A program made the position numbers and the translations under genes. This document shows positions 4,636 through 41,891 of a stretch of 64,000 nt of DNA, in pieces. Source of the stretch: Nymphaea colorata (Eukaryota; Streptophyta; Magnoliopsida; Nymphaeales; Nymphaeaceae); contig NC_045138.2 in assembly GCF_008831285.2 (NCBI RefSeq), positions 16,835,934-16,899,933 on the forward strand, given 5' to 3'. Numbering within the stretch: the first letter of the stretch is position 1; each line of letters begins with the position of its first letter. The notes beneath the pieces were generated by a model, which worked only from the letters and a program-made list of their open reading frames with translations, was not told where the DNA came from and searched no databases.

Positions 4636-5483
4636 TCACGCTTTATAAAGCAGCCTCCTGACGGCGTCAGCTTTGTCCTTCTCCACGGTAGCCAACAGCT
4701 GCTCGACCCTCCCCTTCACGACCCTCTCCTTCAGATCATCAACCTCCTTCTCCAAGCTCCTTAAGCGGCTGCAAGTCTCCTCCAGCACCACCGTTTGCGG
4801 CACCTGCACCACCAGCCATATGCTCAAAATGCTTCACATTGATGTTAATATTATAGGTAAGATCTACTGCATCCCAAAGGCGTTTGGTCCAACAGTCAGG
4901 GTGAGAGCCAATAAGCGGTTGGTTTTAAGGGTGGGCATCGAGTTGGGCCGCCGTCGAGTACTCGGAACCCAGCCTAAATCCGGGCCAAGAAAACCGGCCT
5001 CAATCCGGGCCAAGAAAGCCGGGTCGGACCTGACAGGCCGACCCGATGCCCACCCTTGGTTGGTTTTCGTTTCAAATCTGTTGAACCAGGCACGAAAAAC
5101 AGGTAATGTATTTTAAGGGAATAAAGGAATAAATGCAGACTTCAGCCTTACGACAGGTAGTGGGGAACCCACTCACCGGAAGGATAAAGATCTAATACCA
5201 ATCAACCAGTCTGCTATAGGCTCAGTAGTCCACAGAACAAAATAGATACTTCAGGGTTTTTATTTTTTATTTACATATGAGTGCCCTTTAAAATTTGATA
5301 TTTAAAACAATAGTGCCCCTAAGCCAGAAAATTCTGTGACTCCACAGTAAATCAACCAACCTGAGGTGTGTTGCGAAGCTCCGGAAGCAAGTTCTTCAGC
5401 TGCTTTATCAGTTGTTCGACCTTCTGGTCGGTCGAACCTGAGGAACATGCACTAACGGGTGAGTTTGATCCCGAGCTAGACAT
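4636..5483 (-). CDS. PRE-like atypical HLH protein, type a, copy 1
   Basis: Two exons on the minus strand: 5,361-5,483 (ATG at 5,483) and 4,636-4,803 (TGA). They join at CAG|GTTGGT and TGCAG|GTGCCG across a 557-bp intron, giving 96 residues. The Ser-rich N-terminus has no basic region. Helix 1 contains LKNLLPELRN (about residues 30-39), a short loop follows, and helix 2 reads LEETCSRLRSLEKEVDDL. These are the marks of the PRE/ILI/BNQ family (about 90-105 aa), nuclear HLH proteins that bind inhibitory bHLH partners and promote elongation. Family assignment rests on length, the intron inside the loop and these motifs. The partner and hormone response are inferred from the family. The predicted protein is identical to the copy at 23,242. 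A MITE lies in the intron. The start is the first ATG downstream of the TATA box. Confidence 0.85.
4927..5057. mobile_element. 131-bp Mutator-type (MULE) MITE in the type a intron
   Basis: GC-rich element with perfect 14-bp terminal inverted repeats, AAGGGTGGGCATCG at the left and its complement CGATGCCCACCCTT at the right. It is flanked by a perfect 10-bp direct repeat GGTTGGTTTT (4,917-4,926 and 5,058-5,067). TIRs plus a 9-11-bp target duplication fit Mutator-like elements. It has no coding capacity. The same element is at 23,533-23,663. Confidence 0.8.
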
Positions 5484-5617
5484 CTTCACTGGAGAGGGAT
5501 AGCGAGGGAGAGAGTGTCAAGTTCTTGGTTTGCTATCAAGTCGCAGACTGAGTGAAGGAGAAGAGAGAGGAGCAAGGAAGGGCGTGTTCGTGGGGAGGAG
5601 GAATGGCCTGAGGTTGG

Positions 5618-5627
5618 TATTAAATAA
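5618..5627 (-). promoter_or_regulatory. TATA box of type a gene, copy 1
   Basis: On the minus strand the site reads TTATTTAATA, 135 bp upstream of the ATG, leaving room for a 5' UTR of about 100 nt. The same block (plus strand GGTTGGTATTAAATAAGG) precedes all type a and type c genes, and a close variant precedes type b. It is therefore a shared core promoter. Confidence 0.65.
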
Positions 5628-7411
5628 GGTTGCGCAGAGAGAATCATATTCAAGAGATGCACCATAAAAAATCCTGACTCCACCTTCCATGCCAAAGCAG
5701 AAAGATTGAAATATTATTGTCATTGATTTTACAATCAACAAGTATGCACAAGGCTTCTGATAAATCTCAAGTTTACAGGCTGTTAATTAAATTAAAGGCA
5801 AAATTTAAGATTTTTCTTCCTTATGTGTACCTAAGATTTTGTCGAGCTCGGTTTGGATGAATGAAAATGAATGGAAAGGGAAGGATGAAAATAAATGAAA
5901 AGAAAAGGAAGGAGAAGGGAATGAGGTGCTAAATAAGAAGAAAGAAAGTAAAAGGAAATAGATGATTATAAAACTTGTTTGAACAGAAAGGAAACAAGCA
6001 AAGCTTTTCATTTTATTTACATTGAGTTATAATTTCATTTTCTTTGCAACCAAACATGTTTTTTTTTTTTTCTTTCCTTCACTTCCTTCTTAATCAACCA
6101 TTAAACATCAAATTCACTATATTTTCCTTTTATTTCCCTCCATCCTAACAAGCCATCCTGCAGATTTGAAATCCATGGGCCATATGTGGATCATATGACA
6201 AAAGATCTATGGTAAAGCCCATGCTACATCAAACAAATGATCTTAGGTCAGACTTAAGATTCACAATTAAGGCCCTTATTTTATTTCTTTGAATAAAAAA
6301 AATGCTGCATTTGAAATCAGAGTGGGGGACCGAACTTCAATCCCTGGTCTACAAATCCTAAGGATCTCAATTCCAAAGCCATCAAATGCCCCCTAAGTGA
6401 AAGGGCAGGAAGTACTGCAACATTTTCCTATTACATACGGTCAATCAAAGAAGTTTTTTGTTATTCAGATGCTTTTTGTTCGATTGAATGACAAACTTGG
6501 ATTTAAATTTGCAAAGGGCAAATTAATCCGACAACCAAGTAGCACAATTCAGATATTTCTTGATTCGACTTGAAGCCAAACTTGGATCTTAATATGAAAA
6601 AAAGGCCAATTTTAACTGTAAATATACGTTTGAAAAAAGAAATCAAAGATTTCAGGTCCATTTATATCTATGTAAAACTATTCAAATGTTTTTTTATTGG
6701 TCTATTTATATCCATGTAAGACTATTCAAATGTTTTTTTTATTGGTCTTGAAGCCAAACTTGGATTTCAATATGAAAAAGGCAAAATCATTTAACTGTAA
6801 TTATGCTTCATTTAACAATCTGCACCAAAATATTTGGGCATCCTTAAACGCAAATGATTAAAATGACAGTTCTCTTTTGCTTGGTAGCCGAGATATACAT
6901 GGATTAATAAAATACTTTTCCTTATAATTTTCAATATAAGATTTTTTTTCTTTCTGCACAAGAGAACGCATACTCCATGAGAAATTTTTTTATTAAATAC
7001 CAGCTTTTCGCATCTACTTTTAAGTACTTAGATGTTAGTATGAAGAAAATGAAAAAAACGAAAGCAGTAATGACCCTGTGTTAGTGTGCATAGATAGCTG
7101 AGACGATGATGAACCAATTAATAAATGAAGAAAAAAAGGAAAATGAAGACTGTATAAGGTGAAGAATTAGCAAAAGAAAACATTGTGGCCTAAATGATCA
7201 AACGTACTATATTAAGTCATGGTTAACCTACTAAAGCAACATATCTTGAAAAACATCTAAAAGAAACAAAAAAGCACAGCAAATTATAGCATCACACAAG
7301 CACACACATGCACACCGATGGCGAAAGTGTACACGTGTCTTAGATATTAAAGACTGTTACAAAAAAGAAAAGGGAAGAAAGTCCAAGTTTATCTAGGATG
7401 TTCATTGCTGG
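5628..7411. other. Upstream and spacer region of type a gene, no gene seen
   Basis: AT-rich spacer almost identical to about 24,262-26,045. Between about 5,850 and 6,058 the ends look like a short inverted-repeat element (GTTTGGATG... at the left, ...CAACCAAAC at the right), possibly a MITE. At 7,030-7,240 lies a diverged copy of the unit boundary, including gaagaattagca and acattgtggcc. Confidence 0.55.
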
Positions 7412-7637
7412 TATCGTACAGTAGATTCTTGTTGAGCTCTTCATTTCGAGGTCTGGTTCATCTTTGCTGTTCGAATTTCTAGCATTTGAGGCTAATAGAT
7501 TTGGCATTTGGGATTCATGCTAAATTATGTTTATTAACATGGAGAAGGTTTCTATGATCTGACATAAACTTTACAACAGATGATTGAACTTGATCCTCCA
7601 CTTCCAGCTTCAGCTGTGGATAGGAATTGTGTGTGCA
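7412..7637. repeat. About 220-bp dispersed direct repeat, copy 2
   Basis: Second copy in X1 of the repeat described at 2,010-2,232. It shares TTCGAGGTCTGGTTCATCTTTG and the downstream block to TAGGAATTGTGTG. The distance to copy 1 is about 5.4 kb, the size of a one-gene module. Confidence 0.72.
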
Positions 7638-10600
7638 CAAACAGAGCACTTTGCTTCGATCAACGGTCTTTCAGTCGGGTACCCATCGGTTTCTTTCAGT
7701 CCGTAAAAACTGATTAATTTGGGGAAATCTCCAGCCATAGTCGATCGCTAGCTTGTTCAACCAGCAGCTAAAGGAGCTACCCCAAAACCCTCACATGCCA
7801 CCCATCTCACCATTTTCATCGTCTCTTTTCCTCCTTGTGTGCTGCAAATTTCTTATGTCACAGTCTTTCTTCCACTACAGATGAACGAGCAACTTGTATA
7901 GCATCTAGCGCAACTGATATTTATTGTGGAAACTGATTGTAGTTTAAGAATAACTAAGTTATGGGAAGTTGTTAACTGCCTTTCCAATTTCGTTACTTGC
8001 ATGTCTTTGAACTTGGGTTGGTCAGATTTGTCTCTTACCATCACCTCTTGTAAGTTATCTGTGTCAAAGTACGGGAAATCATCTGTTTTAGTAGACAAAT
8101 TAAATTTTGTTTTAGTATTTACTAGAAAAACATGATGGATATATGCCATGTGCTAGAAGAGTTATTTCTGGATCTACTTGTCTTAAACACACTTCCTGTC
8201 TTCGTCAAGTACTTTAATAAGGCATTGACGCTATTGTATCATGTTCATGACGATTGAACATGATTTTTAAGAAACTTCAATCTAAGCTGTGGTATTTATA
8301 ATCTTAGCTACAGTTTTGAAATTCTGATGTTGCAGAAACCTACAGAAAACGGTGTGCTAGAACATCTAAATGTCAGAATTGAATTCTTGTGTGGAAATTT
8401 TCATCATTTTCCCTACCTTTGACATCATAAATATATTGCCAAGAGAACTGATTTAGCATTGTCTTGTGATCCCTATGCTTGATATGGTTTTTGAAGCAAC
8501 AGCATAATATTTCGCCTCACCACATTCTCCTTTGAACCATCCATCTATTGAATTAGAAATAATCTGGGCATGAGCTAAACTGAGATATTATGTTGTTACT
8601 GGGAACATGGTCCATTTCAGCAAACTCCTGATCAGGTGGGTCATAATTTTAGTCGAATTATATGATGGGCTTGAGAAGGTAAGAGGCAATAATTGGTGCT
8701 CATATGACCGTTGTTTTGGTGGGGATTATAATGGCCAATATTTGGTCAATATTTTTGCCGCTATAATTTTTATCCATGCTATATCAAACAGGGTGAAACG
8801 TTACCATATCTATGCAAATCACACACCCACGGATTTTTGTTTATGGATTTATTTTCAAGAATGGAAATCCAGGGATTTCTATCCACAGATATTTGTCTGT
8901 GGCATTCAAACACCCCTTAGTGAAAGGCTACAACCATGTATGTCTTATATTGAAGTAATGCGATCAATGAAGGCTTATAAAATCTTCAAATCCGTGATAC
9001 TAACTTTCTGGGAAATGATGTCTTCCGTTAGAATGTACATGTGTGCTATACCGTTTTGTATATTTTCTGTAAAAATACATTTGAAGAGGTAGGAACCTGT
9101 TGGAGTGCGGAGCTTGATTCATATTTGATAGCCTTCCCTAGTTTCTGTAAAGGCATTTATGTCATTTTTTTTTTTGTTTTTATGGGTTTTGCCCTAGTCT
9201 TATGTTTATGAGTTATTTGTTTGGCTTGTACTTAGTATTCTTCTGTGATAGTGAAAATTGCTCTATGTGGTAACCGTAAACATAGGAGAATGTTATCTTT
9301 TAACCTAGTAAATCTTTGTCTTTCTAATTTTTATTCTATTGCTATGTTAAAAGAGTATGAGAGAGTCTCGTTCCAAATATAACTGACCTTCATGGAGTTA
9401 TGGTTAGAGGGCGATAACTTGGATGGTTGGCAAGAACAAACATTTAATTTAATAAAATGGTACTGCTATACTTGGCTTCAATGTTCCTAAAACTTAGTTT
9501 GATCTTTTGCAAGGTGAAAGAAGGGGATTTCCTGTTTTGGAAGTTCTAGGAATGGTAAAAATAGAACGCCCTGTTCTGCCTCTTTACCTGACAACGAATC
9601 AAACACAGTTTTAAAGTTGAACCATGAGGGAACCAGTAAACTGATTTGGGCAGTCTAAGCTTCTGTTTATATTAAAAATTAATTAACTAGGTTAATTTAA
9701 TAAAAAATGAAAAGCAGCTAACTACGATGCAAATAAGCAATTGATACACAATTGACGGCATTGCAACTAAATAGGATGTGCATCTATAACAAATTGTTCC
9801 TTTGGAAATAAGGAAGTAGGGTTGGCGAGAGGTCACCAATTAAGCTGCTAGTAATATAGTCGTGGATTATTAATCACCTTACAAGACTTTAAGTTCAACC
9901 TTCCAACCGGTAGATGGTGCATTATTGGGCACGATCAAATCGAAATTTTTAGTGGTAATATCGTAACACTCCATAAATTTAGTCATGTATCAAAAATTAT
10001 ATGGGATCTTCAAAGGCTTATAAAGGGAGACCATTAATGAGATTATTGTCTTAGTTTATAGTCTTTTTCAGGTCAAAGCCAAAACTGCTAGAGAGTAGGT
10101 TGAGATCCGTTGAACCAGGGGCTCGAACCCAAGAGTAGGTCGAGTTGTTATAGATATAATCATATTCAACAGTCGTTATAGCTGATCTTATGACCATTAA
10201 ACTACTTGGTTATCTTCACAAAAGAGGCCTTGAGGCAGAATTAAAGTTCAATTGTTCATAATGGTTTCCATGGTAGTAGGTAGATGGCTGTCAGCACTAG
10301 GGATCCGTTTTATAGTTTGGTAAAGTGATCATTTTTTTTGGTTAGTTCTTCGTAATCTGTCCAATTCAAGCGAAAACCCGTAAACTGGAGGCATTTAATT
10401 AAGAAGGTGCATAATGGATATCAAGGCCACTATAAGTGACAAGATAAATTCCTAGTTCGACGTTGTTTCTTGACCTCATGACCCATCAAGGTCTAACGGC
10501 GTGTTTGGATGACGGACACCCTTATAGAAAGCTGTATTGAAAAAATTGGGTTTTAGATCATTTTTCTAAAAATTGGTTTCTAGATCATTTTCTCTTCATT

Positions 10601-10769
10601 AGAACTCAAATATTTCATTAGTCAAGCAAGAAGAGACGGATGAATCGCGCTATCATACTAATGAAAACCAACTTTACCTTTCAAACAACAATTATGACCA
10701 GTGGCAGATTGCCTACACCAGCCTTTTAAAATTCCTTTAGTTTTAAATGGACATCTTTAAATCTTTCTA
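7638..10769. other. Spacer with no recognisable gene
   Basis: Up to about 9,410 this matches 26,266-27,823 in X2, except for about 260 bp (8,665-8,915) present only here. Beyond that point X1 and X2 differ. A block at 10,290-10,480 is homologous to about 33,430-33,600 in X2 but lies on the other side of an HLH gene there. Open frames (69 codons at 7,926, 161 codons at 8,607) show no conserved protein pattern between units. Confidence 0.6.
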
Positions 10770-10890
10770 TATATATATATATAAGTAAGTACTGCACCAA
10801 ATATGAGTATTTTTATTTTTAAACAAGTGTCATTCACCGATGATATATATATATAAGTACTGCACCAAATATGAGTATTTTCACCGACGA
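10770..10890. repeat. Two-copy tandem repeat, 68-bp period, with TA runs
   Basis: Each unit is a short TA run followed by agtactgcaccaaatatgag. The two shared cores start at 10,789 and 10,857. It lies just before the exon-like fragment at 10,936. Confidence 0.75.
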
Positions 10891-10935
10891 TGACATTTCC
10901 TTTTCTCATTTCTAATACAAAAAAACGGCTCTCAG

Positions 10936-11201
10936 GACATAATCGAGTTCCAGCACTGAAATTAGAAGTCCTAGATAATGTCCTCATTTCTGTGAGCGCT
11001 ATGCTTTCTTGGGCTTATGCAGAAGCTGGTGCTCATCTTGTTCGAATGATAATGGAACAACTCTCTTTTGGACAGGACGAGAGAAATATTTCAGATAAAT
11101 CTGAACTTCTACATAGTTTCAAAAAATTCATTGAATTTATTTTTGCCCGTTGCTTGCAAATGCCAACTGCTCGCAGGCATTTTAACAAGTCATCAGGCTG
11201 A
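10936..11201 (+). pseudogene. Terminal-exon-like fragment of an unknown gene
   Basis: An open frame of 88 codons runs from an acceptor-like site (GGCTCTCAG|GACATAAT) to a TGA at 11,199-11,201. Its composition is protein-like, unlike the chance frames nearby. It has predicted helical stretches such as LSWAYAEAGAHLVRMIMEQL and KKFIEFIFARCLQM. There is no start codon within the exon and I see no upstream exon, so it looks like the last exon of a gene carried here as a fragment. I do not recognise the family. It has no counterpart that I could find in X2 or X3. Confidence 0.4.
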
Positions 11202-11807
11202 GAATGGCATGTTTTGAGTTGAAGTCGCTCTCTTTGGCTCTTATAATAAGGAAAAAACTATCTTTGAATAAGAAAATTTAGAAATGCAAACATCTATATG
11301 CCTATGAATGGTTTATCATAGGCTCTCATCCCACAATGTGGGAAAATGAGAAAAATAGATAACACGTACCTTCGCATGCATGAAAAATGTCAAAGATCAA
11401 ACTTAAAGACACTTTTTTTCATTACAAGAAGAAAACACACAATACAACTCACAATCCCCAAGACATACCACACAACTTCCAACCCGAAACATGTATTTAT
11501 TTTCCCAAGACTAGAAACGCTCGACTCTTAACTTCCATCATGGTGATCCATGACGGCCACTACACGCACACATGACACAAACACGAGACGACAGACAACT
11601 GACCGAGTTACATAAAGCAATACATCAACACAAACACGAGACGACAGACAACTGACCGAGTTACATAGACATCAACACAAACACGAGACCACCAACAACA
11701 GACCCGGCGACTCATGCACGCTGAGTAGCCATGACACAGCACCGCCCTTAACATTTTTGCCACAAGTTTCCGCCACTGACGTTCATAAGGACGGTCTGCA
11801 ACACAGT
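11202..11807. other. Downstream flank of type b gene
   Basis: No gene seen. The stretch cacaaacacgagacgacagacaactgaccgagttaca is partly repeated near 11,577-11,690. It resembles the 3' flanks of the other HLH genes (for example 4,500-4,620), which supports common descent of gene plus flank. Confidence 0.55.
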
Positions 11808-12245
11808 CTAAGAAGAGTCTCCTCCACTAAGCTGCCTCAGCAGCCTCCGGATGGCGGCAGCTTGGGCACTGTCCATGTTGGCCAACTGACCGGCGATCCT
11901 CTGGCTGAGGTCACCCACCTGATTCTGCAAGTCCCTGATGTAGTTGCAGATCTCGTCCAAGGCCCTCTCTGGCGTTACCTGCACCACCACCCACCACCAA
12001 TATACTCAGAATACTTCGATTAAAACTAAAGATAAAGGGAGGAAAAGTGAAAGAAGCGAAACAGAAGGAAAGAATGCCGATCAACCAACCTCGTTCGCGG
12101 GCCTGTTGCGAAGCTCTGGTATCAACGACCGCAGGTTGTTTATGAGCTCTCTTTGCTGCTCATCGGACATCCTTGGAGTTGAAGAAGTGCTAGATCGTCC
12201 GCGTGAACTTGATCGCCCGCGTGATCTTGATCTCCTGCCAGACAT
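11808..12245 (-). CDS. PRE-like atypical HLH protein, type b (most canonical)
   Basis: Minus-strand exons 12,090-12,245 (ATG at 12,245) and 11,808-11,978 (TAG), joined at GAG|GTTGGT and TGCAG|GTAACG across a 111-bp intron. The product is 108 residues. The N-terminus is Arg/Ser-rich (MSGRRSRSRGRSSSRGR), as in many PRE proteins. Helix 1 carries LINNLRSLIPELRN (residues about 34-47), and helix 2 carries ALDEICNYIRDLQNQVGDLS. The tail DSAQAAAIRRLLRQ is close to the family consensus. No basic DNA-contact region is present, so a dominant-negative HLH partner role in brassinosteroid, gibberellin or light growth control is expected from the family. The frame stays open upstream of this ATG, but that part overlaps the presumed 5' UTR and promoter. 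X2 and X3 carry no equivalent type b gene. Confidence 0.9.
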
Positions 12246-12360
12246 CTCGCCGGATAGTGGGTGTCTAGTTCTTGGCTTACTATCAAAAGCAGCAGCCTGA
12301 GTCAAGAGAGAGGAGCGAGGAAGGCAGTGTTCATGGGGAGGAGCCATGGCCTGAGGTTGG

Positions 12361-12370
12361 TATTTAATAA
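12361..12370 (-). promoter_or_regulatory. TATA box of type b gene
   Basis: The minus strand reads TTATTAAATA about 116 bp upstream of the ATG, in a block related to the promoters of the type a and c genes (GGCCTGAGGTTGGTATTTAA on the plus strand). Confidence 0.6.
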
Positions 12371-13739
12371 GGTTGTCGACAGGAAATCATATTCGAGAGA
12401 TCAACCAGGAACACCCCTGATGACAAAGCAGAAAGATCGAAATATGATTGTCATGGATGGCAGAAACAAGAAATATCTACAAGGCTTCGCTGTTCATTAA
12501 ATTAAAGAGAACTTCAAAGATTTTTTCCTGATTTATACTAAGATTTTGCTAAGCACCAAAGTCATTTCTTACTGTCACTCGAACCTGCATTTTGGTATTC
12601 AGATACGTTTTTTGTTCGACTTGAAGACAAAATTTGGAATTCAATTTGAAAGATGCAAATTAATCCAATCATCATGTAGGAGTATTCAGATCTTTCTTGA
12701 TTCACTTGAAGCCAAACTAGTATCTGAGTATGGAAATTGAGATCCGATTTTAATTGCAATTGTGCATTTGGAAAAAAAGAATCAAGGATTTATTAGTTTC
12801 AGTGAGAAATGATCCAATAAAAGAGTCTGCAATTGGCAAGCATCTGCTACCCCTGCTCCCTCAAAGCACGACAGCCGATTGGATTCAAATCAAGCCTTTT
12901 ATATCCATGCAGGACTATTCAAGTATTTCCTAATTCAACTTAAACAAAAAGCCTTTCATTTGAATAGAAAAAAGCAAAATCCAGGTTCAACTGCAACTCT
13001 ACATTTGGAAAAATCAAATATTTTTTGTTTCCAGATATCTCTTAATTCAATTGGAAACCACATTTGGATTTGAATATTGTGAAAAAATAAAAAACCAATT
13101 TTTATCTGAAATTGTTCCTTTGAAAAATCAAATATTTATTAGTTTGTGAGAAGGAGGAGTATTTCAATCTACCAAACAGAAGAAAGCCAAAGCTTATGCT
13201 CAATCTCTATTCCCCTATGATACAAGTATTAATAATGCCATATTACTAGTAATCCATTACAAGCATTTCCTGTCCCCACTCCCTCAAAGGATGCCAACCG
13301 ATAGGTACTGAAAGGGAATATTCTAAAATATATCATATACCGGCTTTCAAGTAAATATTCAAGGGAAAATAATTTGAGGAGCCTTGATCGAAATATTATA
13401 TTTCTAAGGAAGCGACCCCTCGCTTATTCTAGAATGTAATTGTAAAATGGGACGTGATGAGATATTTTCCGGGGTAGGGAACTCTGTTTCTGAAACTTCT
13501 AAATCTGATTGCAAAACAAGTGAGATCCAAATCAATTGTCACATCCAAGAACCAACATGTTTGCAATAACTAAATTATGCAATAACTAAATTATGTAAAT
13601 TCTAAATGAGTGAAATCCAATATATTGACATCTGGGTTTGCTCCTCACAACTTGTAGTCATATACATTGCATTGGGTAGTGGGTTTATACATGCATGGAC
13701 ACAACAAACATTTTTAACATGCATTTTATAGTGTCTAAC
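12371..13739. other. Upstream spacer of type b gene, no gene seen
   Basis: AT-rich, and related to the upstream spacers of the other HLH genes (for example 6,470-6,600) through repeated stretches such as gacttgaagccaaact. No coding pattern is visible. Confidence 0.55.
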
Positions 13740-14200
13740 TAATAAAACAGGCTTAACTAAATAGCACGTCCTATAACGTCCGAGATAATGAAAGAAGCAG
13801 AGACCGAACAAGTGTCATATAGCATTTGAGATGAATAACTGGCAAGATGCCCTATAGCGTTTGAAATAACTAAAGTGGTATGAAATAATAAAAGGAGATG
13901 ACCAAACAACAACTGTATGAGATAAGGAACTAGGTTGTATAGCATAAGAGATAACGACATGGGTATGAGATAACTAAACAAGACTTATAACATCTGAAAT
14001 AACGACAAAAGTATGAGATAAGGAAACATGTCTTATAGTACCTGAGATAACGACATGAGTATGAGATAAGAAAACATGTCTTATAATGTATAATGTATGA
14101 GATAACGAACCAAACATGTTACATAGTGTCAGAAATAAGAAAAGGGGTCTAAGATAATGACAAAGGTCTGAGATAAAGAAAAGGTGGAGACAAAAATAAA
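13740..14200. repeat. 48-bp-period minisatellite (GAGATAACG family), X1 copy
   Basis: Degenerate tandem copies of a unit built from two half-repeats centred on gtatgagataacg and ctgagataacgac. Because 48 is a multiple of three, frames stay open on the minus strand and give repeated VISDVI/SHT peptides; these are a by-product. Related blocks lie at 35,280-35,700 and 46,565-46,950, once per unit. Confidence 0.8.
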
Positions 14201-14287
14201 CAGAGACGTATATTGGTCATAACGACGTGTATATACAAACTTACACAATCATTCCCACCTTCGCATCAGGGCATGCTTGATTAAAGT

Positions 14288-14425
14288 AAATTCATTGGTA
14301 GCCAATCTCGATTCTGTTGTCAAATCTCAAAACCTTAGATTACTATGTGGCACTTTAAATTCATTGGTAGCCAATCTCGATTCTGTTGTCAAATATCAAA
14401 ACCTTAGATTACTATGTGGCAGCAT
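14288..14425. repeat. 69-bp tandem duplication unique to X1
   Basis: The block beginning ttcattggtagccaatctcg occurs twice, starting at 14,291 and 14,360, with one or two differences. X2 has a single copy (about 35,778-35,846), so the duplication arose after X1 and X2 separated. Confidence 0.85.
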
Positions 14426-16667: not shown

Positions 16668-16669
16668 AC

Positions 16670-16681
16670 TGGTATCAGAGC
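16670..16681 (+). other. Primer-binding site for initiator-Met tRNA
   Basis: TGGTATCAGAGC, two bases after the 5' LTR, is the usual complement of the 3' end of plant initiator-Met tRNA used by copia elements. Confidence 0.93.
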
Positions 16682-16704
16682 TAGGTTCGTTCACGATAGG
16701 AACA

Positions 16705-30108: not shown

Positions 30109-30665
30109 TCACGGTTTACGAATTAGCTTCCTGATGGCGTCAGCTTTTTTCTTGTCAAAACTGTCCACCAGCTGCTCGATCCTCGCCCTGAGGTTATCCG
30201 ACTCCCTCTCCAAGCTCCTTAAGCGGTTGCGAGTCTCCTGCAACACTGCCGGGGAAGCCTGCACCCATATGCTTCACATTAATATTAATATTGGAGATAA
30301 GCCCACAAAATTTACTTTGTTTATGCATAGATAATAACTACATAAAAAGAGGTCCTAACGTCACTAGTGATGTTACTGACGATAAAGTTTCGTCGAGGAC
30401 GTCAGTAAAATTAGTGTCGTTGATACTTTCCTGATGTCTTCATGGTTTTTAATTATTTTTTTGACATATGATTACGTTTGAACTTTAAAGCATTAGTGCC
30501 ACTTTGATAAAAATTTCAGGCTCAGCGAAATCAACCAACCTCATTATCAGGAAGCACGATGTTGTGCAGCTGGTTTTGCAAGTTCTGCAGCTCGGCTAGG
30601 AGTTCTTGGACCCTCTGGTCGGTCGAGCCTGCAGAACTTCCACTTTTTGATCCCGAGCTAGACAT
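30109..30665 (-). CDS. PRE-like atypical HLH protein, type c, copy 1 (altered helix 1)
   Basis: Exons 30,540-30,665 (ATG at 30,665) and 30,109-30,258 (TGA) join at GAG|GTTGGT and GTGCAG|GCTTCC across a 281-bp intron, for 91 residues. The Ser-rich start (MSSSGSKSGSSAGSTDQRV) matches type a. Helix 2 is recognisable (LQETRNRLRSLERESDNLRARIEQL). Helix 1 reads LQNLQNQLHN where types a and b have LKNLLPELRN and LRSLIPELRN, so the conserved Leu-Pro-Glu-Leu core is lost and the loop is rewritten (IVLPDNEASPAV). The frame and splice sites are intact. It may still dimerise with changed partners, or be decaying; the sequence does not decide. Its promoter block matches the type a genes. Confidence 0.8.
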
Positions 30666-30794
30666 CTTCACTGGAGAGGGAGAAGAGCGAGTGTCTAGTT
30701 CTTGGCTTGCTATCAAGTCGCAGCCTGAGTCAAGGAGAAGAGAGAGGAGCAAGGAAGGGCGTGTTCGTGGGGAGGAGGAATGGCCTGAGGTTGG

Positions 30795-30804
30795 TATTAA
30801 ATAA
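30795..30804 (-). promoter_or_regulatory. TATA box of type c gene, copy 1
   Basis: TTATTTAATA on the minus strand, 130 bp upstream of the ATG. Confidence 0.63.
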
Positions 30805-33800
30805 GGTTGCGAAGAGAGAATCATATTCAAGAGATGCACCATAAAAAATCCTGACTCCACCTTTTCATGCCAAAGCAGAAAGATTGAAATATTACTGCCA
30901 TTGATTTTACAATCAACAAGTATCCAAAGGCTTCTGATAAATCTCAAGTCACAGGCTGTTAATTAAATTAAAGAAAAAAATTTAAGATTTTTCTTCCTTA
31001 TTTATACTTAAGATTTTGCCAAAGCTGTGTTTGGATGGATGAAAATGAAAGGAACGGGAGGGATGGAAAGAACAGGAAAAGGAAGGGAATGAGGAGCCAA
31101 ATGAGAGGAAAGGAAAAAGACATAAAATATATGATTATAAAGCTTGTTTGAACGAAATGGAAATGCACATCCCTTTTCATTTTAAGAAGGGCAAATTAAT
31201 CCAATAACCATGTAGAGTCATTCATATATTTCTTGATTGGACTTGAAGCCAAACTTGGATCTGAGTGTGAAAAAAATCCAATTTTAACCATGTAAGACCA
31301 TTCAAATCTTTCTTAATTTGTCTTGAAGCCAAACTTTGATTTCTATATGAAAGAGGCAAAATCATTTTTACCGTAATTATGCCTTAGTTGTTATAGTGAA
31401 AAAGAAACTAACATTACTATACAATCTACACCAAAATATTGGGACATCCTCAAGCCCAAACGATTAAAATGACAGTTCTCTGAGATATACATGAATTAGT
31501 AAAATACTTTTGCTTAAAATTGTCAATATTAAAATTTTTTCTATCTGCACAGGATACTGCATACTCCATGAGAACATTTTTAAATACCAGCTTTGCCCAT
31601 CTACTTTTCTGTACTGAGAAAAAGGATGCTTCTTAGTAGGGCAAGGTTTGAACTAGTAGCAGAGCCACATGGAGGCTGGTGTGGGCAGTTCACAAACTTT
31701 GATTAGGTTTTACATTAAATGCTTTGATATGTTTGATTGTTTATATGTATAGGTTTCCCTAAAAGTATTAAAGTTATTGAATTTAGCGTCCCTTCAGCCA
31801 AAATTTTTAGCTCTGCTAGTGCCTTGAACATTTAATCTCGTGCATATTTGATCTTCTCTAGCTCAGAAATGACTTTCACCAAAAATTATCATGTGCATAA
31901 TATACTTCCAATTAACTTAACGTAAACACCAAAAGTTTAAAAGTTTTAAAATTTCTCATATCAAGAAAGTCCTGCGCCTAGGCATAAAAAATCTTGATCC
32001 GCAATTTTTTTCTTTCTATCCTGGGAAACTCATTTGCATGGTAAGTACCCACATATACCAAATGAAAAACGAGTACTACCGTCAGATATGAAGACTAACA
32101 TGCATCTACATATTAGACCAAGAACGGATCAAAAGAAACTTTTCAATTTCAAAATGTCAATAGTACCATACAATTTTTAAGAAAATTACGTACAAATTGT
32201 TTAAATATGTAATATGAGTATTATTTGGAATCTAGGCAGGTTGTAATTTTTGTACTAATTGATCCAATTATGTCAAAGAAGAACTATTATAAAAAATCAT
32301 TATAAAGGCATCTCTGGCGCTAAGGATTTCGGCAGAAACAGTCATTTCTGGCGCTCGACAAATGCAACAAATTTTCTTATCGGTGGCGCCATAACTGTGC
32401 CAGAATGAACCACAACTCTGGGCACTATACCTATGCCAACGAAAAGCAGAGCTTCGGCTCTATGGCGGTTCGACCACTGGCGCTGCTTTGGGTGTTAGTT
32501 TAGCGTCAGAGCCGCAGCTTTTTGTTTTCATTGAGAATATAATTGAATGGAGACTCTTAACTTTTTCAGAATTACTTAACCATTTAACTAGAGCCATCTA
32601 ATTCAACCCGATGAACGGTTAAAAGAAAAACAAGGAGAAAAAGTTGATGGGTTTTTCTCACCTTGTTTTTTTCTCAATCATCCATTTCCTTCAAATGAAC
32701 AACCTTTGTTAGATGGCTGGGTGACTTTGGATGTACATATATATATATATTCATTGTGTATCTTTTTATCTAATAGCTAGATTGGTAAGTTAACAATAAC
32801 AGGCATCTTTTTTATTTCCAGCCTTACCCATGACATATAGCACCAAATACAAATTTCTTATGTATTACCCGCTCCTTATTTATTTTATTTCACAGCAAGC
32901 TTATGGTGAAGCAAACCATAATAGTTTATACGAACAAAATGCAATATCCCGACAATTGAAGAACTCTTAGGTTTCTTTAACTTCGAAAGTCTTGAATTGC
33001 AATCCCTTAGCTAGCCATGGGGAAACCTTTTATTCTCCTAGAGCTAGTTTATTTAATATTAAGTTCACTTAACTGATTTTGCTTATAATTGGCTTGAACC
33101 GAGTCGGTATACCCGATCCTATCAAATCCAGCTGTGGTCATTTTGGATCACTCACGCGAGTTCAGAACGTCAGTGAAAGCTCCCAGAGTACAACAAGGAG
33201 GACTTTGATGCCAGATGTGGGCATCAGTGACAGTGAACACTTATTTCTTACGTTTGCTGCATATTTAGTAAAGTTCATGATATTTCACAATTCAAAAAAT
33301 GACAAACTGAGGATCCCAGCTGTCTCGCCAAACCCAGACTCGTAACCTAAGAAACATACAATCTTAGCTGACACATGCAACTTGCGACTCGGATTGGCGA
33401 GTTTGCCAACTATGCTTATATGGCTGCAATATTAGGAATGCCTTTTAAAATTTTGACAAGAGGGACCACCCTTTCACTTCATTCTTCCTAATCTCTCCAA
33501 TTCAAGGAAATTAAACACTTAAGCTGGAGGCATTTAAGAAGGTGTATAATGCATATTAAGTGCCACTAAAAGCGACAGGATGAAGATTTCAACATTGTTT
33601 GACCGAAGCCAGTCGAGGCCTAAGTCTCTGCGAGATTCATGAACTGACTTGAGCCGCTTTCGATGTTAGTGGTCCTCGTAGGTCAGGTGAAGGTGAGCAA
33701 AGTCTGTTTGTGGTCATTGTGTCTGCCTCATTTAAGACTTGTGAGTTCCTCTCATACAGCTGTGATGGGCATATAAGCCATTTTATTAACAAAAGATCTT

Positions 33801-34544
33801 CACTGCCTTGACTTGGAGAAATGCCTCAATTTTAGGCCTCATTTGTTTCATCACTTGGGAAAGAAACCACCTCTAGTGGTTCGATTTGGACCAATGGCTG
33901 CGATCCCTAGTTTGATTCTCATAGGTGTCAACTCCTTACATAAGTCTAAATAGGCTTAGGCCTTAGATTCAGGGGTACTAGCTTTGAGGTTTTATATTGC
34001 ATTCAAGTCTTTTGGCCTGGATGCAGTTTCTTTTGGACCTAAATTAAAGGTGAGCAGGAGGCTAATCCCACTGCCTGAGTGAAAGCCTCTTTCAGACATT
34101 AATTACTCTCTAAACATATTTAAGCAAATTAAACAGTTATACTGCAGGCATTTTAAGGTCTTCTTAGCCTGAATGCAGTTTTCCTTGGACCTAAATCAAG
34201 GGCGATGAAGTACAGTTGTTGTGTTGTTGTAATGTTCTAAAACTGTCTTTTGTATTTTCAGCCTTACCCACTTGACATAGGCCCAAATACAAGCTTCCAA
34301 TGTATGACATGTTCCTTATTTATTTTATTTCATAGCGCTGGGAAGAAGCATACAGTATAGTTTATACGAACAAAGATGCATCCAGAGAATTAAACCCTCA
34401 GCTTCCTTTTAACTGTAAAAGTGTTCAAGTCAGCCCTTACCTTGGGAGCAAACATCTTATTCTCCTACAGCTATTTTTTTTATAAATACGTCACCACGGG
34501 TTTTACTGCCTTCAGAAAAAGGTCAATAATAGTGTACAAACCAC
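30805..34544. other. Spacer in X2 with transposon-derived sequence, no gene
   Basis: At 32,310-32,520 repeated tctggcgct/ggcgcc motifs look like subterminal sequence of a CACTA-type element. At 33,430-33,600 lies the block homologous to 10,290-10,480 in X1. A solo end similar to the hAT-like element (gactcgg...gtttgccaactatg) is at 33,385-33,418. No conserved coding frame was found. Confidence 0.55.
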
Positions 34545-34739
34545 CATAGTTAGCAAACTTGTCGAGCTGACTCGGGAATCGCCGGAGGAGTCAGCTCAGA
34601 TCGAGCCCTGACTCGACTTGACTGCAGTGATTTACATTATGGTTATTTGAATATTCAATCGAGTCGATGAATCAACTTGCTGACCCTGTGATCCGGTCAT
34701 CTACTGATCCAGGTCCGAGTCATGGGTTTGCCAACTATG
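34545..34739. mobile_element. hAT-like MITE, X2 copy
   Basis: The ends CATAGTTAGCAAAC and GTTTGCCAACTATG are 14-bp inverted repeats with one mismatch. They are flanked by caaaccac (left) and caaaccat (right), an 8-bp target duplication with one change. TIRs starting with CA plus 8-bp duplication fit hAT. The interior is 195 bp in total with several gactcg motifs and no coding capacity. Confidence 0.72.
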
Positions 34740-34993
34740 CAAACCATCACTTTAAGAATAACTTATTGATGTTTTCAAGGAAATGTCGATGAAGACCTTT
34801 AGCGATGTTTTTAGAAAAATGCCATTGAACACCTACAAAACGTAAGATCTTCACTTATGTTTTTATGTAAAAATGTCACTAAAAACCAGCAATAAGAGAA
34901 GGTAGTGATGTTCCGTTGGATACGATGACTGAACCTTCATTACGTTTTGAGTTGCACATTAGTAAAAGAAATCTCAGTCATTGAATGACTCAC

Positions 34994-35231
34994 CACTATA
35001 GGTCTACAAAGGTGATTGTTTTCAGCGCTGTACCATTTTTCATGTATACAGACAAGTGGGAGGAACTTTGGAACGTTCCGCGATGTCAAGCTAGGCCCCA
35101 CCGTTAGCAACGTCAATGAAACATCAGTTATAATTGAACTTTATCGACATTGAAAATGGAACATCTATAAAGATATATATTTACTGACATGATATTTTCA
35201 CACGTTAGTAAATACTTGTGGCCTTATAGTG
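34994..35231. mobile_element. Possible CACTA-type MITE, X2 copy
   Basis: The left end is CACTATAGGTCTACAA. The right end, read on the minus strand, is CACTATAAGGCCACAAG. The interior carries repeated tttactgacatgat/acgttagtaaat motifs like CACTA subterminal repeats. The expected 3-bp target duplication is not evident, so this is tentative. Confidence 0.45.
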
Positions 35232-35279
35232 TGTTAAGTTCTAAACCTCATTTTACAGATAATAGGACGACTTATAATT

Positions 35280-35700
35280 GGGTTGAATTTGAGATGAAGA
35301 ACTGGCGATATGCCTTATAGCGTTTGAAATAACGAAAGTGGTATGAAATAATAAAAGGAGATGACGAAACAACAACGGCGTGAGATAACGAAGTAGGTTG
35401 TATAGCATGAGAGATAACAACATAGGTATGAGATAACGAAATGAGACTTATAACATCTTAAATAACGACAAAAGTATGAGATAATGAAACATGTCTTATA
35501 GTACCTGAGATAACGACGTGAGTATGAGATAAGAAAACATATCTTATAATGTATGAGATAACGATAAAAGTATGTGATAACAAAACATGTTATATAGTGT
35601 CGGAAAACATGTTATATAGTGTCGGAGATAACAAAAGGGGTCTAAGGTAATGACAAAGGTCTGAGATAAAGAAAAGGTGGAGACAAAAACAAACAGAGAA
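35280..35700. repeat. 48-bp-period minisatellite, X2 copy
   Basis: Degenerate tandem gtatgagataacg/ctgagataacgac units, counterpart of 13,740-14,200. Confidence 0.8.
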
Positions 35701-37238
35701 GTATATTGGTCATAATGACATGTATATATAAACTTACACAAGCATTCCCGCCTTCGCATCAGGGCATGCTTGATTAAGTAATTCATCGGTAGCCAATCTT
35801 GATTCTATTGTCAAATCTCAAAACCTTCTATTACTATGTGGCAGCATCACAAGCCTGTGTACAAAATTTTCGCGCACCATGAAAGCGTATATAACCTGCT
35901 TCGCGTGTACATAAGATGGCACAAGTTGATTAACCCAAAAATCAAACACATGAACATAATTAACAAGATACATATCCACTTACATCATGTCATCATGTGA
36001 GCATGACAGATTAACATGCATACTATCCATTTCAGTATACATCACGCATAAGTGAGCATTGGTGATCATGTGCATGGATATCAACAAAACTGAGGAACCG
36101 AAGTTACGAACTAAAACAATCATACTGATATTAATCGTGCGTCCAGATAACAATCAATCACACTAATTAGGCACATACATATAACATGTTTGATTACAAT
36201 GAAAGCGGGATTAGAGGGAGACAACTTACTCTCCTGACCAGAAAAGTTCCACCGAATATTGGAAATGAAAGAGACTGGAGAAACAAACATTGATGCGGAA
36301 GAGATAGAAGAAACCAGAAGATTGAGAAAGAGCGCGCCAAGCAAAGAGAGAACACACTCAAAAATCTTAAGGTGGTTTTCCTACCCATTAAGAAAACATA
36401 TAACTTGTTTAATAGTTTATAATAGTGCAGTAATTAATGTCTTTCTATATATATCAATAATTAATGTCCCGTTTTCATTATATAGCACATTGTTGCTGGC
36501 TCGCAGCTTTACTTCTTTGGTCTGCGAGCGTTGTTTTGGGTCTTATGGACCAACTTTTCATCTTCCCTCTCAGTGGCAGGGGTCATGGCCCCACCTCTGG
36601 TCATTTAAAAAATTAAAAAAAATTACATATAAATTTTAAAAATTTTAAATTAACCTATATAAAAAAATTTAAAAATTATATTTTGGCCTTAATATAATGA
36701 AAAATTAATTTCCATCTCCAATCCTGTCTACAAGTTGAGGAAAACAGGCCGTCGTTAACGACTTTGTACTCTCTTCAATCCACTATAGCTCAAGGTAAAG
36801 CTAAATTTGTAGAGGAACAAAATGGCAAGCCTTCATGGACATTGGTGATTAAATTTGGCCCTCTAAGATCAGGTATGTATGTCTTCTTGTGCATAACATT
36901 GGTGATTAAATTTTCATTCCCTTCAAAATAAGGACATATGCATTTGGTTAAAATATTTTATTTAGTTTGTCAGCAATATCCTTTCTTCCTCATAAGGATT
37001 CGCTTTACGGATTTATTAGTTATGGCTTGTGACTCTTACCACTTTGTGTTTGGTAGCTGGGCATATGTTTTGTGTACTTAAATATTAGTACGAAGAAAAT
37101 GAAAAAAATGAAAGCAGTTGTGACACTGTGTTAGTAAGATTAGATAGCTGAGACGATGAATGAACCAACTAATGGATGAACAAGAAGAAAAATGAAGAAT
37201 GTAAAAGGTGAAGAATTAGCACAAGACAAACATTGTGG
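35701..37238. other. Right end of X2 with two empty sites
   Basis: Matches X1 14,200-16,356 but lacks the 572-bp element (single gaggaaaac at 36,737-36,745). It ends in cattgtggaccgatcgatcaaaag (37,231 onwards), the unoccupied version of the copia site. No gene seen. Confidence 0.7.
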
Positions 37239-37270
37239 ACCGATCGATCAAAAGTTCTATATTAAGTCAT

Positions 37271-37489
37271 CGTACAGTATATGCCTGTTGAGCTATTCAT
37301 TTCTAGGTCTGGTTCATCTTTGCTGTTCGAATTTCTTGCATTTGAGGCTAATAGATTTGGCATTTAGGATTCATGCTAAATGTTGTTTATTAACACGGAG
37401 TAGGTTTCCATGATCTGACATAAAATTTACAACAGATGATTGAACTTGATCCTCCACTTCCAGCTTCAGCTGTGGATAGGAATTGTGTG
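37271..37489. repeat. About 220-bp dispersed direct repeat, X3 copy and recombination point
   Basis: The first bases resemble both X2 copies and the rest matches 26,046-26,265, consistent with an exchange inside the repeat. Confidence 0.7.
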
Positions 37490-40400
37490 TGCAGAAACAG
37501 AGCACTTTGCTTCGATCAACGGTCTTTCAGTCGGGTACCCATCGGTTTCTCTCAGTCGGTAAAAACTGATTAATTTGGGGAAATCTCCAAACATAGTCGA
37601 TCGCTAGCTTTTTCAACCAGCCGCTAAAGGAGCTACCCCAAAACCCTCACATGCCACCCACCTCACCCTTTTTGTCGTCTCTTTTCCTTCTTGTGTGCTG
37701 CTAATTTCTTATTTCACAGTCTTTCTTCCACTATATATGAACGGACAACTTGTATAGCTTCTAGAGAAACTGATATTTATTGTGGAAACTTATTGTAGTT
37801 TAAGAATAACCAAGTTATGGAAATTGTTAAACTGCCTTTCCAATTTCGTTACTTGCATGTCTTTGAACTTGGGTTGGTCAGATTTGTCTCTTACCATCAC
37901 CTCTTGTAAGTTATCTGTGTCAAAGTCCGGGAAAACATCTGTTTTAGTAGACAAATTAAATTTTGTTTTAGTATTTACTAGAAAAACATGATGGATATAT
38001 GCTATGTGCTGGAAGAGTTATTTCTGGATCTACTTGTCTTAAACACACTTTCTGTCTTCGTCAAGTACTTTAACAAGGCATTGACGAGTTCTATTGTATC
38101 ATGTTCATGACGACTGAACATAATTTTTAAGAAACTTCAATCTAAGCTGTGGTATTTATACTCTTAGCCACAGTTTTGACATTTTGATGTTGCAGAAACC
38201 TACCGAAAACGGTGTGCTAGAACATCTAAATGTCAGAATTGAATTCTTTTGTGGAAATTTTCTTCATTTTCCCAACCTCTGACATCATAAGAATATTGCC
38301 AAGAGAACTGTTTTAGCATTGTCTTGTGATCCCTATGCTTGGTATGGTTTTTGAAGCAACAGCATAATATTTCGCCTCACCACATTCTCCTTTGAGCCAT
38401 CCATCTATTGAATTAGCAACAATCTGGGCATGAGCTAAACTGAGAAATTATGTTGTTACTGGGAACATGGTCCATTTCAGCAACTCCTGATCAGGTGGGT
38501 CATAATTTTAGTCGAATTATAAGATGGACCTAAAAAACACCCCTTAGTGAAAGGCTACAACCATGTATGTCTTATTTTGAAGTAATGCGATCAATGAAGG
38601 CTTATAAAACCTTCAAATCCGTGATACTAACTTGCTGGGAAATGATGTCTTCCGTTAGATTGTGCATGTGTGCTATACCGTTTTGTATATTTTCTGCAAA
38701 AATACATTTGAAGAGGTAGGAACCTGTTGGAGTGCGGAGCTTGATCCATACTTGATAGCCTTCCCTAGTTTCTGTAAAGGCATTTATGTCATTTTTTTAT
38801 GGGTTTTGCCCTAGTCTCATGTTTATGAGGCCGCTGTTTGGCTTGTACTCAGTATTCTTCTATGATAATGAAAATTGCTCTATGTGGTAACCGTAGACAT
38901 AGGAGAATGTTGTCTTCCAACCTAATAAATCTTTGTGTTTTCTTTCTTTCTCTTTCTAATTTTTATTCTATTGGTATATTAAAAGAGTCTGAGAAAGTCT
39001 CGTTCCAAATATAACTGACCTTCATTGAGTTATGGTTAGAGGTCGATAATAGAAAATTCACCTTTAGGGCACCTTGTTTTTTCCCTTGTGTGTGTGTGTG
39101 TAGGGTTTGATCTAACCATGGGATTCACTGCAACAGGCGGTTTGTTATTTAGGTGCTTATAGTTAGTTTTCACTTTGCTTGTTCTCAAACTAACTTGCAT
39201 CTAAAGATGGTGATCTCCAAAGCCGAAAGCTGGTTATATGCACATAGCCGGTATTAAAAGCGGTAAGAATCTTGAAAAGTGTAATGGGCACATACAAATA
39301 ATTGTTATATATATATATATATATATATTATACACACACACATAATATTTCACCACTCAATTTCAGTATTTCACGTCTGTCAAACCAATTACATGGAAAA
39401 CTTCGTTATTAATTAGTTGTCCAACGTACCCCAGGAGAGAAAATAATTATGTAGCTTTTGATCTTGGTTAATTTATGTGGGGGATCACAACTTACCAATT
39501 TTGTTTTAACACTAGTAAGTTTCTAATTATAAACTCCCACCCTTTTCATAAATTAATCTGCTTATACAGATCATGCCTAGATTGGTTTTATGTACTTTTT
39601 CCAACTCTACCAGATAGCTTTGTTGAGACTTCAATGTATCCGAAGCACCATATACAATTGAAAAGTTTTGAAGGATAGCTTACCATATACAATTGAAAAG
39701 TTTTGAAGGATAGCTTCAACGACCAAAATTGATTTGCTTATTAGAGGCAGTTTGATCAAACAGAACTGAAAATATGTTCTTTAGAAATCAAATGTATGAT
39801 AGAACAGACAGAACAGGCAAACATGTTCTATGTGAACTAAAGTTAAATAGAGCAAACATTATGTTTTGGTATTAATTTCATCAAACAATGAATGGAGAAT
39901 TGGTGAGTCGATGAGACATGACGGTGGTGTAAACTGTAAAGAACAGGACGTCCTATTGTCCTGTCTCTATGGAACATGAATCAAACGACCTCTTAAGAAA
40001 ACCGACCTACATAACTGGTTATTGATTGTTTTTTGTTTGGAGGCAGTATTATAAGAGACTTTTAGTGACGGCTTCTGCAAAAGGTCATTGAACGTCTAAC
40101 TTTTGTTGATGTCATTCTATTTAACGTCAGTAAATTTACATGTTCGGCACTTTAAAGTTGAGCAAGCAAACGAGAGCAATGCTTTCCATTCATATGTCAA
40201 TCATCCCATGATCGGATATAGGGTTATAGAGATGTTAATGGATCAGATTTAAATCAATTATACATTTAACCATATCTACTTTTTTTAATCAGCTATTAAA
40301 TTCTTTTCCATATCCGGCTTTTTTTAATGGTTTAGTCGGATATCCAATCGAAATTTGGTATATTGATATCCCTAAATTACATATTTTGATATAATGAGTC

Positions 40401-41334
40401 GGCATGCTTTGAGGGAGCAGGGGCAGGAGATTACTAGTATTGGATCCTCTCACACAGAAACTAATAAATCTTTTGATCTTTTGCAAATGTGAGATCACAG
40501 TTAAATTTTTTGATCTTATTTTTCATGGCCGAATCCAAGTTTGGCTCCAAGTCAAATCAAGAAATATCTGAATATATAGAAGGACATGATTGTCGGATTA
40601 ATTTGCACTTTTCAAATTTAGAAATAAATTTTGTCTTCAAGTCGAACAAAAAGGTATTCGAATACTAAAATGCTTCCTCGATCGACAGCAATGGGTGCTT
40701 CTCCTCCAGCGAACCAAAGTTAACGACTTTTACTGACATTTTGATTTCTTGGCATCAGTAAATGCCTTGTTCTTTGCTCCAGGCAAGAAAAACTGTTGGC
40801 GTTTAGGAGACACCTAAAACAAAGGGGGGCTGGGGGGCCTCAAAAAAAAAATTAAAAATGTAATTTTTTTAAAAAAATTCATTTATTATGAAAAAAAGTT
40901 TTGAAAAATTATATTAATACTATAATTCGACTTCCTGGTGAAAAATTCTGAAGTCCAACGCTGGCAAGAGTTTAAAGAAAGAACGTCAAATCCACTCACG
41001 TTAGAATGTCACATGCACGAAAAAATTGGCAAAGGAGGCACGGTATTGTTTTGAACTCAAACAAACTTCAACCCTCAATCACCAAGACATACAACAAGAG
41101 ACACAAGTTAGCCCAAGACCATAAAACTCACAACTCTTTAACTTCCATCATAGCAAATACAAGATGGCCACTGCATCCATGCATTATTATTAAAGCAAGA
41201 CAACAACACAAACAGGAGACCACAAAAGACAGACCCGGTTACCCATGCACAACGGGTAGCCATTACACAACATTGACCGGAACATACATCTTGCCACAAG
41301 TTTCAACCATTGATGTTGAGATGGAGCGTTTGCA
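37490..41334. other. Spacer of X3, copy of 26,266-30,108
   Basis: Base-identical to its X2 counterpart apart from one homopolymer base. No gene seen. It contains the same TA run (about 39,304-39,329). Confidence 0.7.
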
Positions 41335-41891
41335 TCACGGTTTACGAATTAGCTTCCTGATGGCGTCAGCTTTTTTCTTGTCAAAACTGTCCACCAGCTG
41401 CTCGATCCTCGCCCTGAGGTTATCCGACTCCCTCTCCAAGCTCCTTAAGCGGTTGCGAGTCTCCTGCAACACTGCCGGGGAAGCCTGCACCCATATGCTT
41501 CACATTAATATTAATATTGGAGATAAGCCCACAAAATTTACTTTGTTTATGCATAGATAATAACTACATAAAAAGAGGTCCTAACGTCACTAGTGATGTT
41601 ACTGACGATAAAGTTTCGTCGAGGACGTCAGTAAAATTAGTGTCGTTGATACTTTCCTGATGTCTTCATGGTTTTTAATTATTTTTTTGACATATGATTA
41701 CGTTTGAACTTTAAAGCATTAGTGCCACTTTGATAAAAATTTCAGGCTCAGCGAAATCAACCAACCTCATTATCAGGAAGCACGATGTTGTGCAGCTGGT
41801 TTTGCAAGTTCTGCAGCTCGGCTAGGAGTTCTTGGACCCTCTGGTCGGTCGAGCCTGCAGAACTTCCACTTTTTGATCCCGAGCTAGACAT
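41335..41891 (-). CDS. PRE-like atypical HLH protein, type c, copy 2
   Basis: Exons 41,766-41,891 (ATG at 41,891) and 41,335-41,484 (TGA), 281-bp intron, 91 residues. Coding sequence, intron and promoter are identical to the copy at 30,109, so the same comments apply: Ser-rich N-terminus, altered helix 1 (LQNLQNQLHN), intact helix 2 (LRSLERESDNL), no basic region. Reads or transcripts would not separate the two copies. Downstream the surrounding unit lacks a type a partner. Confidence 0.8.

Follow-up and report, generated by a model that had tools for sequence, protein, structure and literature searches.

The PRE/ILI proteins of plants have been described as a hub joining hormonal and environmental signals to growth (PMC7729563): in Arabidopsis, IBH1 holds activator proteins of the basic helix-loop-helix (bHLH) class and PRE1 takes IBH1 off (PMC9531339, PMC7729563). 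Surveys of apple, sorghum and cotton describe dispersed PRE genes. For instance, nine genes with two exons and one intron are reported on seven chromosomes in apple (PMC8987198), and seven on four chromosomes in sorghum, where three of the seven have one, five or six exons (PMC11241634); seven are likewise reported in Mimulus (PMC9531339). The survey of four cottons reports no tandem PRE duplicates and gives introns in only three of the PRE genes that it covers (PMC12479684), and cotton PRE1 is described with exons of 40 and 51 residues (PMC6079642). The exon counts of cotton and sorghum indicate that a two-exon structure is not universal among published PREs. Here, we analyse a stretch of 64,000 nucleotides (nt) from the water lily Nymphaea colorata (C1:16835934-16899933, hereafter the window; positions are those of the window unless prefixed C1 or C2), which carries most of a dense array of PRE-type helix-loop-helix (HLH) genes. 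The species is borne out by a microsatellite primer pair published for chromosome 12, Ny-12.1 (PMC9601493), both primers of which match this genome perfectly: the forward primer at a single place, on contig C12, and the reverse primer within the same 3-kb locus. A previous sequence-only reading of this DNA had called such an array unusual for PRE genes, in agreement with the surveys cited above. Our preferred explanation, to which we give a probability of about 60%, is an expansion of growth-promoting HLH decoys in the Nymphaea lineage, with a kept promoter and with the probable loss of an off-switch in two of the three protein types (a and c).

Five intact two-exon genes lie within the window, all on the minus strand and without internal stops. 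The sequence-only reading had proposed exactly these five (type a twice, b once, c twice), and the outer limits that it gave, 4636 and 41891, are the stop end of gene a1 and the ATG of gene c2. Gene a1 (4636-5483; exon 1 5483-5361, intron of 557 nt, exon 2 4803-4636) encodes a protein of 96 amino acids (aa), and a2 (23242-24117; exon 1 24117-23995, intron of 585 nt, exon 2 23409-23242) has the same coding sequence, with no difference over 291 nt. Gene b1 (11808-12245; exon 1 12245-12090, intron of 111 nt, exon 2 11978-11808) encodes 108 aa with an expanded Arg/Ser-rich N-terminus. Gene c1 (30109-30665; exon 1 30665-30540, intron of 281 nt, exon 2 30258-30109) encodes 91 aa and is matched without difference over its 276 nt of coding sequence by c2 (41335-41891; exon 1 41891-41766, intron of 281 nt, exon 2 41484-41335). 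The count of five stands for the window; the array itself has six genes, each type being present twice, as a second type b gene, b0, lies about 5.8 kilobases (kb) beyond the window edge on the same strand (C1:16829673-16830107, that is, window -6260 to -5826; exons -5826 to -5981 and -6093 to -6260; 107 aa). It differs from b1 by one amino acid and two silent sites, and its stop comes one codon earlier. The start, the splice sites and the stop are kept in all six genes, and the intron position in the loop, already noted as common to the types, is occupied in all six by a single phase-0 GT-AG intron of 111-585 nt. A tblastn search with the three type proteins over 123.8 kb of joined DNA (the window and about 30 kb on either side, with no N) found no seventh copy and, besides the six genes, only weak matches (E >= 0.23).

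The assignment of these proteins to the PRE type, also put forward from the letters alone, is borne out by the Pfam family bHLH_ILI (PF23174; curated cut-off 27 bits), which the spliced proteins of all three types match above the cut-off: 61.2 bits for b (E 1.3e-16), 52.1 bits for a (E 8.7e-14) and 33.6 bits for c (E 5.3e-8). The 15-26 residues that precede helix 1, read directly in a, b and c, contain no basic region. The Pfam HLH family PF00010 scores 13.5 bits in a (cut-off 20.7); it does not appear in the list for b, nor among the 25 of 54 families listed for c. When PF23174 was run exon by exon, with E up to 10, over the genome (407.8 Mb, 783 contigs), nine matches were found among the best 10 candidates scored. 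Those above the cut-off are exon 2 of b0, b1, a1 and a2 and both exons of one unlinked gene on contig C2; exon 2 of c1 and of c2 fall just under it (26.3 bits against 27), and the remaining match, on contig C281, is weak (17.6 bits, E 1.8). A protein search with the C2 gene, again with the best 10 candidates scored, found those seven loci and one chance match (E 7.35), and a search with type a found the array genes, the C2 gene and two weak matches (contig C289, E 1.4; contig C4, E 6.9). At E < 0.01 the genome thus holds at least seven PRE loci, six in the array and one on C2, a lower bound since only ten candidates were scored in each genome search. A sequence search of the PDB with type b gave E values of 0.13 or worse throughout. 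Among the papers listed in our literature search there was no water-lily PRE study, and a query combining Nymphaea with 'paclobutrazol resistance' returned nothing. The array is a variant of the known PRE/ILI family and not a new kind of system.

The unlinked C2 gene (C2:29771210-29770552, minus strand; exon 1 29771210-29771085, intron of 383 nt, exon 2 from 29770701; 91 aa) is an ordinary PRE gene, which shares 64 of 89, 68 of 91 and 70 of 91 aligned residues with Arabidopsis PRE1, PRE3 and PRE6, respectively. The three Arabidopsis sequences are working versions; their comparison with published points covers PRE1 (length 92, Ser at 46 and 67) and PRE3 (Ser at 39 and 42), which both agree. The C2 gene and the array genes are alike in their intron site, in their core promoter (68-70 of 84 bases) and in collinear upstream DNA; by contrast, C2 is close to the Arabidopsis PREs, whereas the array proteins are far from C2 itself, sharing with it 50-51 of 91 (b), 39 of 89 (a) and 35 of 89 (c) aligned residues. 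Types b, a and c differ from C2 at 41, 50 and 54 residues. At those sites, the Arabidopsis PREs share the C2 state 28, 40 and 45 times and the array state once, never and never, both states occurring among them at 7, 6 and 5 sites and neither at 5, 4 and 4. Splits of 28:1, 40:0 and 45:0 place the protein change on the array side and not on the C2 side. A gain in dosage had been suggested for this array; it fits the near-identical pairs within types. However, the distance between the types and an ordinary PRE is too great for extra doses of a single function to explain everything. The functional splitting suggested alongside it appears plausible in view of the fast, frame-keeping change of the proteins and of the known phosphosite that a and c have lost.

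Three topologies, with the three Arabidopsis PREs as the sole sequences beside those of the water lily, were compared under a codon model in which the Arabidopsis proteins were amino-acid-only tips with their omega (the ratio of nonsynonymous to synonymous substitution rates, dN/dS) fixed at 0.1. The tree with the array as one clade has the best log likelihood (lnL -1335.58, against -1339.46 with b joined to C2 and -1339.47 with a and c joined to C2). In the best of the three trees, the array would therefore be a single clade beside the C2 PRE gene. Upstream of c1, the stretch 31434-33054 is collinear with DNA that precedes the PRE gene of C2 by 1.6-2.8 kb: 31434-31540, 31824-32189 and 32749-33054 correspond to C2 29772810-29772949, 29773064-29773429 and 29773670-29773971, with identities of 68, 70 and 76%. 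This stretch is repeated above c2, and its first block is also present above a1 and a2. Such collinear homology indicates that the founder was a DNA copy and not a retrocopy. A retroposed origin was rejected, the intron being kept in six of six genes and the C2 and c loci having upstream DNA in common. Furthermore, the synonymous divergence (dS) of the array genes from C2 is 0.29-0.50, below the peak of about 0.9 reported for the water-lily whole-genome duplication (PMC7015852), which roughly places the origin of the array after that event. A comparison of the 49 kb surrounding C2 with the 124 kb surrounding the array (57 hits; open reading frames (ORFs) of >= 40 aa, E 1e-4) detected the PRE genes, the DNA upstream of them and a single repeat-like match (C2 29751.1-29751.3 kb with window position 83.0-83.3 kb), but no other coding stretch in common. 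We therefore prefer a later local duplication over an origin by whole-genome duplication, a preference to be read with the shortness of the compared stretch and the roughness of dS in short genes. The tree and the dS values, both obtained within one genome, suggest that the array is specific to the Nymphaea line.

Whereas the proteins changed, the core of the promoter stayed nearly the same. A block of 400 bases above a1 (5484-5883, minus strand) comprises the core promoter and 5' untranslated region, with a motif that we label TATA-like, TTATTTAATA, within CAACCTTATTTAATACCAACCT; it is 92-94% identical to its type c counterpart and has a near-identical copy above a2. Over a core of 84 bases, 83 are identical between a1 and c1 and 69 between b1 and a1, so that the related promoter blocks noticed from the sequence alone are indeed present; the core of the C2 PRE gene agrees at 70 (b0), 69 (b1), 68 (a1) and 68 (c1) of the 84. 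Genes a2 and c2 lie outside this alignment; over the 400 upstream bases, a2 differs from a1 by one base and c2 from c1 by none. Between a1 and c1, identity is 64% from -600 to -401, 92% from -400 to -161 and 94% from -160 to -1. The corresponding values are 75% for either exon, 58% for the intron and 78% for the 300 bases that follow the gene. Their likeness peaks at -150 to -100 (50 of 50), over the block CAACCTTATTTAATACCAACCT, and drops on either side; b and C2 carry this block with little alteration. For cotton PRE1, the TATA box is reported to be indispensable for high promoter activity (PMC6079642). The 1.5 kb upstream of the seven genes were also scanned with consensus words, as a bare list of occurrences from which no inference is drawn: every gene has E-boxes, a1, a2 and C2 have gibberellin-type words, C2 also has auxin-type words, and c1 and c2 have CACATG-type words. 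In none of the seven was a G-box or brassinosteroid-element word found.

The changes in the proteins concern a known phosphosite of PRE1, the N-terminal arm and the helices. In PRE1, Ser-67 is an inhibitory phosphosite: the substitution S67E, which mimics its phosphorylation, weakens IBH1 binding, S67A does not and keeps PRE1 function, changes of Ser-46 have no significant effect, and Ser-67 is reported to be conserved in rice and Arabidopsis PREs (PMC7729563). The Ser-67 position holds Lys in a, Arg in c and Ser in b and C2; since S67A retains PRE1 function, we do not treat Ser-67 as needed for family membership. At the Ser-46 position, C2 has Ser, b Glu, a Thr and c Pro. The arm that precedes helix 1 contains five Arg in C2 and eight in b; in a it is free of Lys and Arg, and in c it has a single Lys. 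With its Arg/Ser repeat, the type b arm resembles the RRSRSRQ arm of the PRE/ILI family. At the end of helix 1, the alignment shows LQNQL in type c and LLPEL in type a, the others having LLPE or LIPE where c has LQNQ. Moreover, five residues are inserted close to the end of helix 2 in type a.

These features lead us to propose the following history and mode of action. A PRE locus like that on C2, copied at the DNA level with its intron and upstream DNA, would have founded the array; the three types would then have diverged, tandem duplication would have doubled each, and unequal exchange or gene conversion would keep same-type copies alike. Given the kept core promoter, the array copies would probably share the expression sites of ordinary PRE genes. 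Their proteins would probably act like PRE, by HLH pairing with IBH1-like inhibitors, which would free growth-promoting bHLH activators. With Lys or Arg at the Ser-67 position, a phosphorylation brake could presumably not act on types a and c, which would also work without an arginine-rich N-terminus. Type c, with LQNQ at the end of helix 1, is the one in which a change or loss of partners would be most likely. Hence, type b would be expected to behave like an ordinary PRE and type a like one that lacks the Ser-67 brake, type c being the furthest changed of the three. A more far-reaching version is that a and c form a new branch of the PRE system, in which decoys without the Ser-67 brake or the basic arm, still under the old promoter, would have diversified toward new partners and would give water lilies another growth-release switch, one without a brake, in addition to that of their single ordinary PRE gene; we regard this version as tentative and rather doubtful.

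How the array genes evolve bears directly on this proposal. Among a1, c1, b1, b0 and C2, dN/dS lies at 0.88-1.15 in nine of the ten pairs, the tenth (b1-b0) giving 0.15. Such ratios are what would be seen if these genes were decaying surplus copies, that is, redundant PRE duplicates becoming pseudogenes under relaxed constraint, and both an array-branch omega indistinguishable from 1 and the weak match of type c to the family model point the same way. Decay nevertheless appears unlikely in view of the start, splice sites and stop that are intact in all six genes, of the strongly kept core promoter and of the state of the frames. In 4000 neutral simulations that started from the C2 coding sequence and were scored for an ATG and an open frame, all three type frames were open in a single run. 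Furthermore, the coding indels between a and c (9, 9 and 15 nt) are all multiples of three, compared with one of 13 in the flanks (400 bases upstream and 300 downstream; Fisher p 0.007 against coding), intron indels being outside this count; a further 300 bases downstream (indels of 7, 25, 23, 2 and 8 nt) were left out because their alignment, 148 of 357, was too uncertain. Since the three frames stay open in only 1/4000 neutral runs and the coding indels come in multiples of three, the array genes seem not to be drifting freely: they would be evolving fast in protein, yet with their frames kept.

The same rapid change might instead reflect positive selection toward a new function, types a and c having been driven to new partners (HLH/bHLH or other proteins) and being no longer ordinary PREs. 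Under the free-ratio model, the internal branch that connects a and c with the other sequences has an omega of 2.6, another fit brings the omega of the array stem to the allowed bound, and the change is indeed on the array side, with the end of helix 1, the N-terminus and Ser-67 altered. However, no branch test for positive selection is significant: the two-ratio model (C2 against the array) yields twice the difference in log likelihood (2dlnL) of about 1.4, and the free-ratio model gains only about 5.5 for four extra parameters. With 83-87 codons there is little power, and short stems make omegas unstable. We consider this explanation improbable, to much the same degree as decay.

Several observations weigh against our preferred explanation of the array as an expansion of decoys with a kept promoter. 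The polarity of the protein change rests on working versions of the Arabidopsis proteins, whose omega was fixed at 0.1 in the model. The fast change is statistically inseparable from neutral change, two ratios against one giving the above 2dlnL of about 1.4 and an array omega fixed at 1 costing about 0.25 lnL. Taken singly, the frames survive neutral runs by luck in 9.1% (b), 4.1% (a) and 2.0% (c) of cases. The likeness of the promoters could partly come from gene conversion, though the core is also kept in C2, which would fit selection at least as well. With only 33.6 bits for the whole protein and 26.3, under the cut-off of 27, for exon 2 by itself, type c may no longer pair with PRE partners. 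Finally, the proposed loss of the brake does not extend to type b, which keeps Ser-67.

The genes lie in large duplicated blocks. The block that carries a1 (2902-8668) is 96.8% identical to its partner with a2 (21511-27302), that of c1 (26044-35754) is 98.2% identical overall to that of c2 (37269-47016), and the blocks around the b pair (-7317 to -3719 and 10768-14352) are 96.0% identical. Within the c units, 26104-31696 equals its partner (from about 37329) over 5.6 kb save one indel, and beyond it the divergence of the units reaches about 5% per 250 bases. This identity reflects either a very recent exchange or a question of assembly. Repeated unequal exchange or conversion would leave such a patchy pattern, with one stretch identical and others several percent apart. 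If the assembly were at fault, the copy number of a1/a2 and c1/c2 would be partly that of two haplotypes placed end to end, as the near-complete identity of the c units and the identical coding sequences of the a pair might suggest. The absence of any N in the 123.8 kb and the uneven spread of mismatches along the blocks (0-20 per 250 bases in the a block, 0-12 in the c block) argue against this, and the three types themselves cannot be haplotypes; we therefore hold such an artefact to be very improbable, more so than decay or a new function.

Other sequences accompany these units. Pieces of a copia-type retrotransposon (gag, zinc knuckle, SH3-like and reverse transcriptase ORFs) occur between array genes at 1-2575 and 16357-21515; they belong to the duplicated units and are 88-91% identical between them. 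An element of about 250-300 bases is present twice in each c unit (32749-33054 and 34248-34481; 43978-44278 and 45472-45705) and once upstream of the C2 PRE gene (C2:29773670-29773973), and is either a repeat or a conserved upstream element. On the plus strand, an open stretch at 57314-57682 aligns with the end of PF00270, the profile of DEAD-box helicases (45 bits), and more direct repeats, of about 1.2-1.4 kb and 82-91% alike, lie to the right of the window (66039-81209). Rfam searches at gathering scores in the window and in stretch L028, and a transfer RNA scan of the window, gave no hit.

In an early-diverging flowering plant, six of at least seven PRE genes thus stand in one fast-changing array under a near-unchanged core promoter, which constitutes a natural experiment: it separates constraint on the promoter from constraint on the protein and allows a direct test of what the Ser-67 brake does. 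To connect the array with petiole elongation under water or with the growth of flower organs would be speculation. Among known systems, the Id proteins of animals are also HLH proteins without a basic region, which titrate bHLH partners; the likeness of the array proteins to them is in mode of action only, and no membership is claimed. The closest system is the PRE/ILI family itself (Arabidopsis PRE1-6, rice ILI1), with which the array genes share an HLH without a basic region, two exons, one intron in the loop and a match to the family profile, in proteins of 91-108 aa. Unlike that family, the array packs six genes in three diverging types, of which a and c have neither Ser-67 nor the Arg-rich N-terminus.

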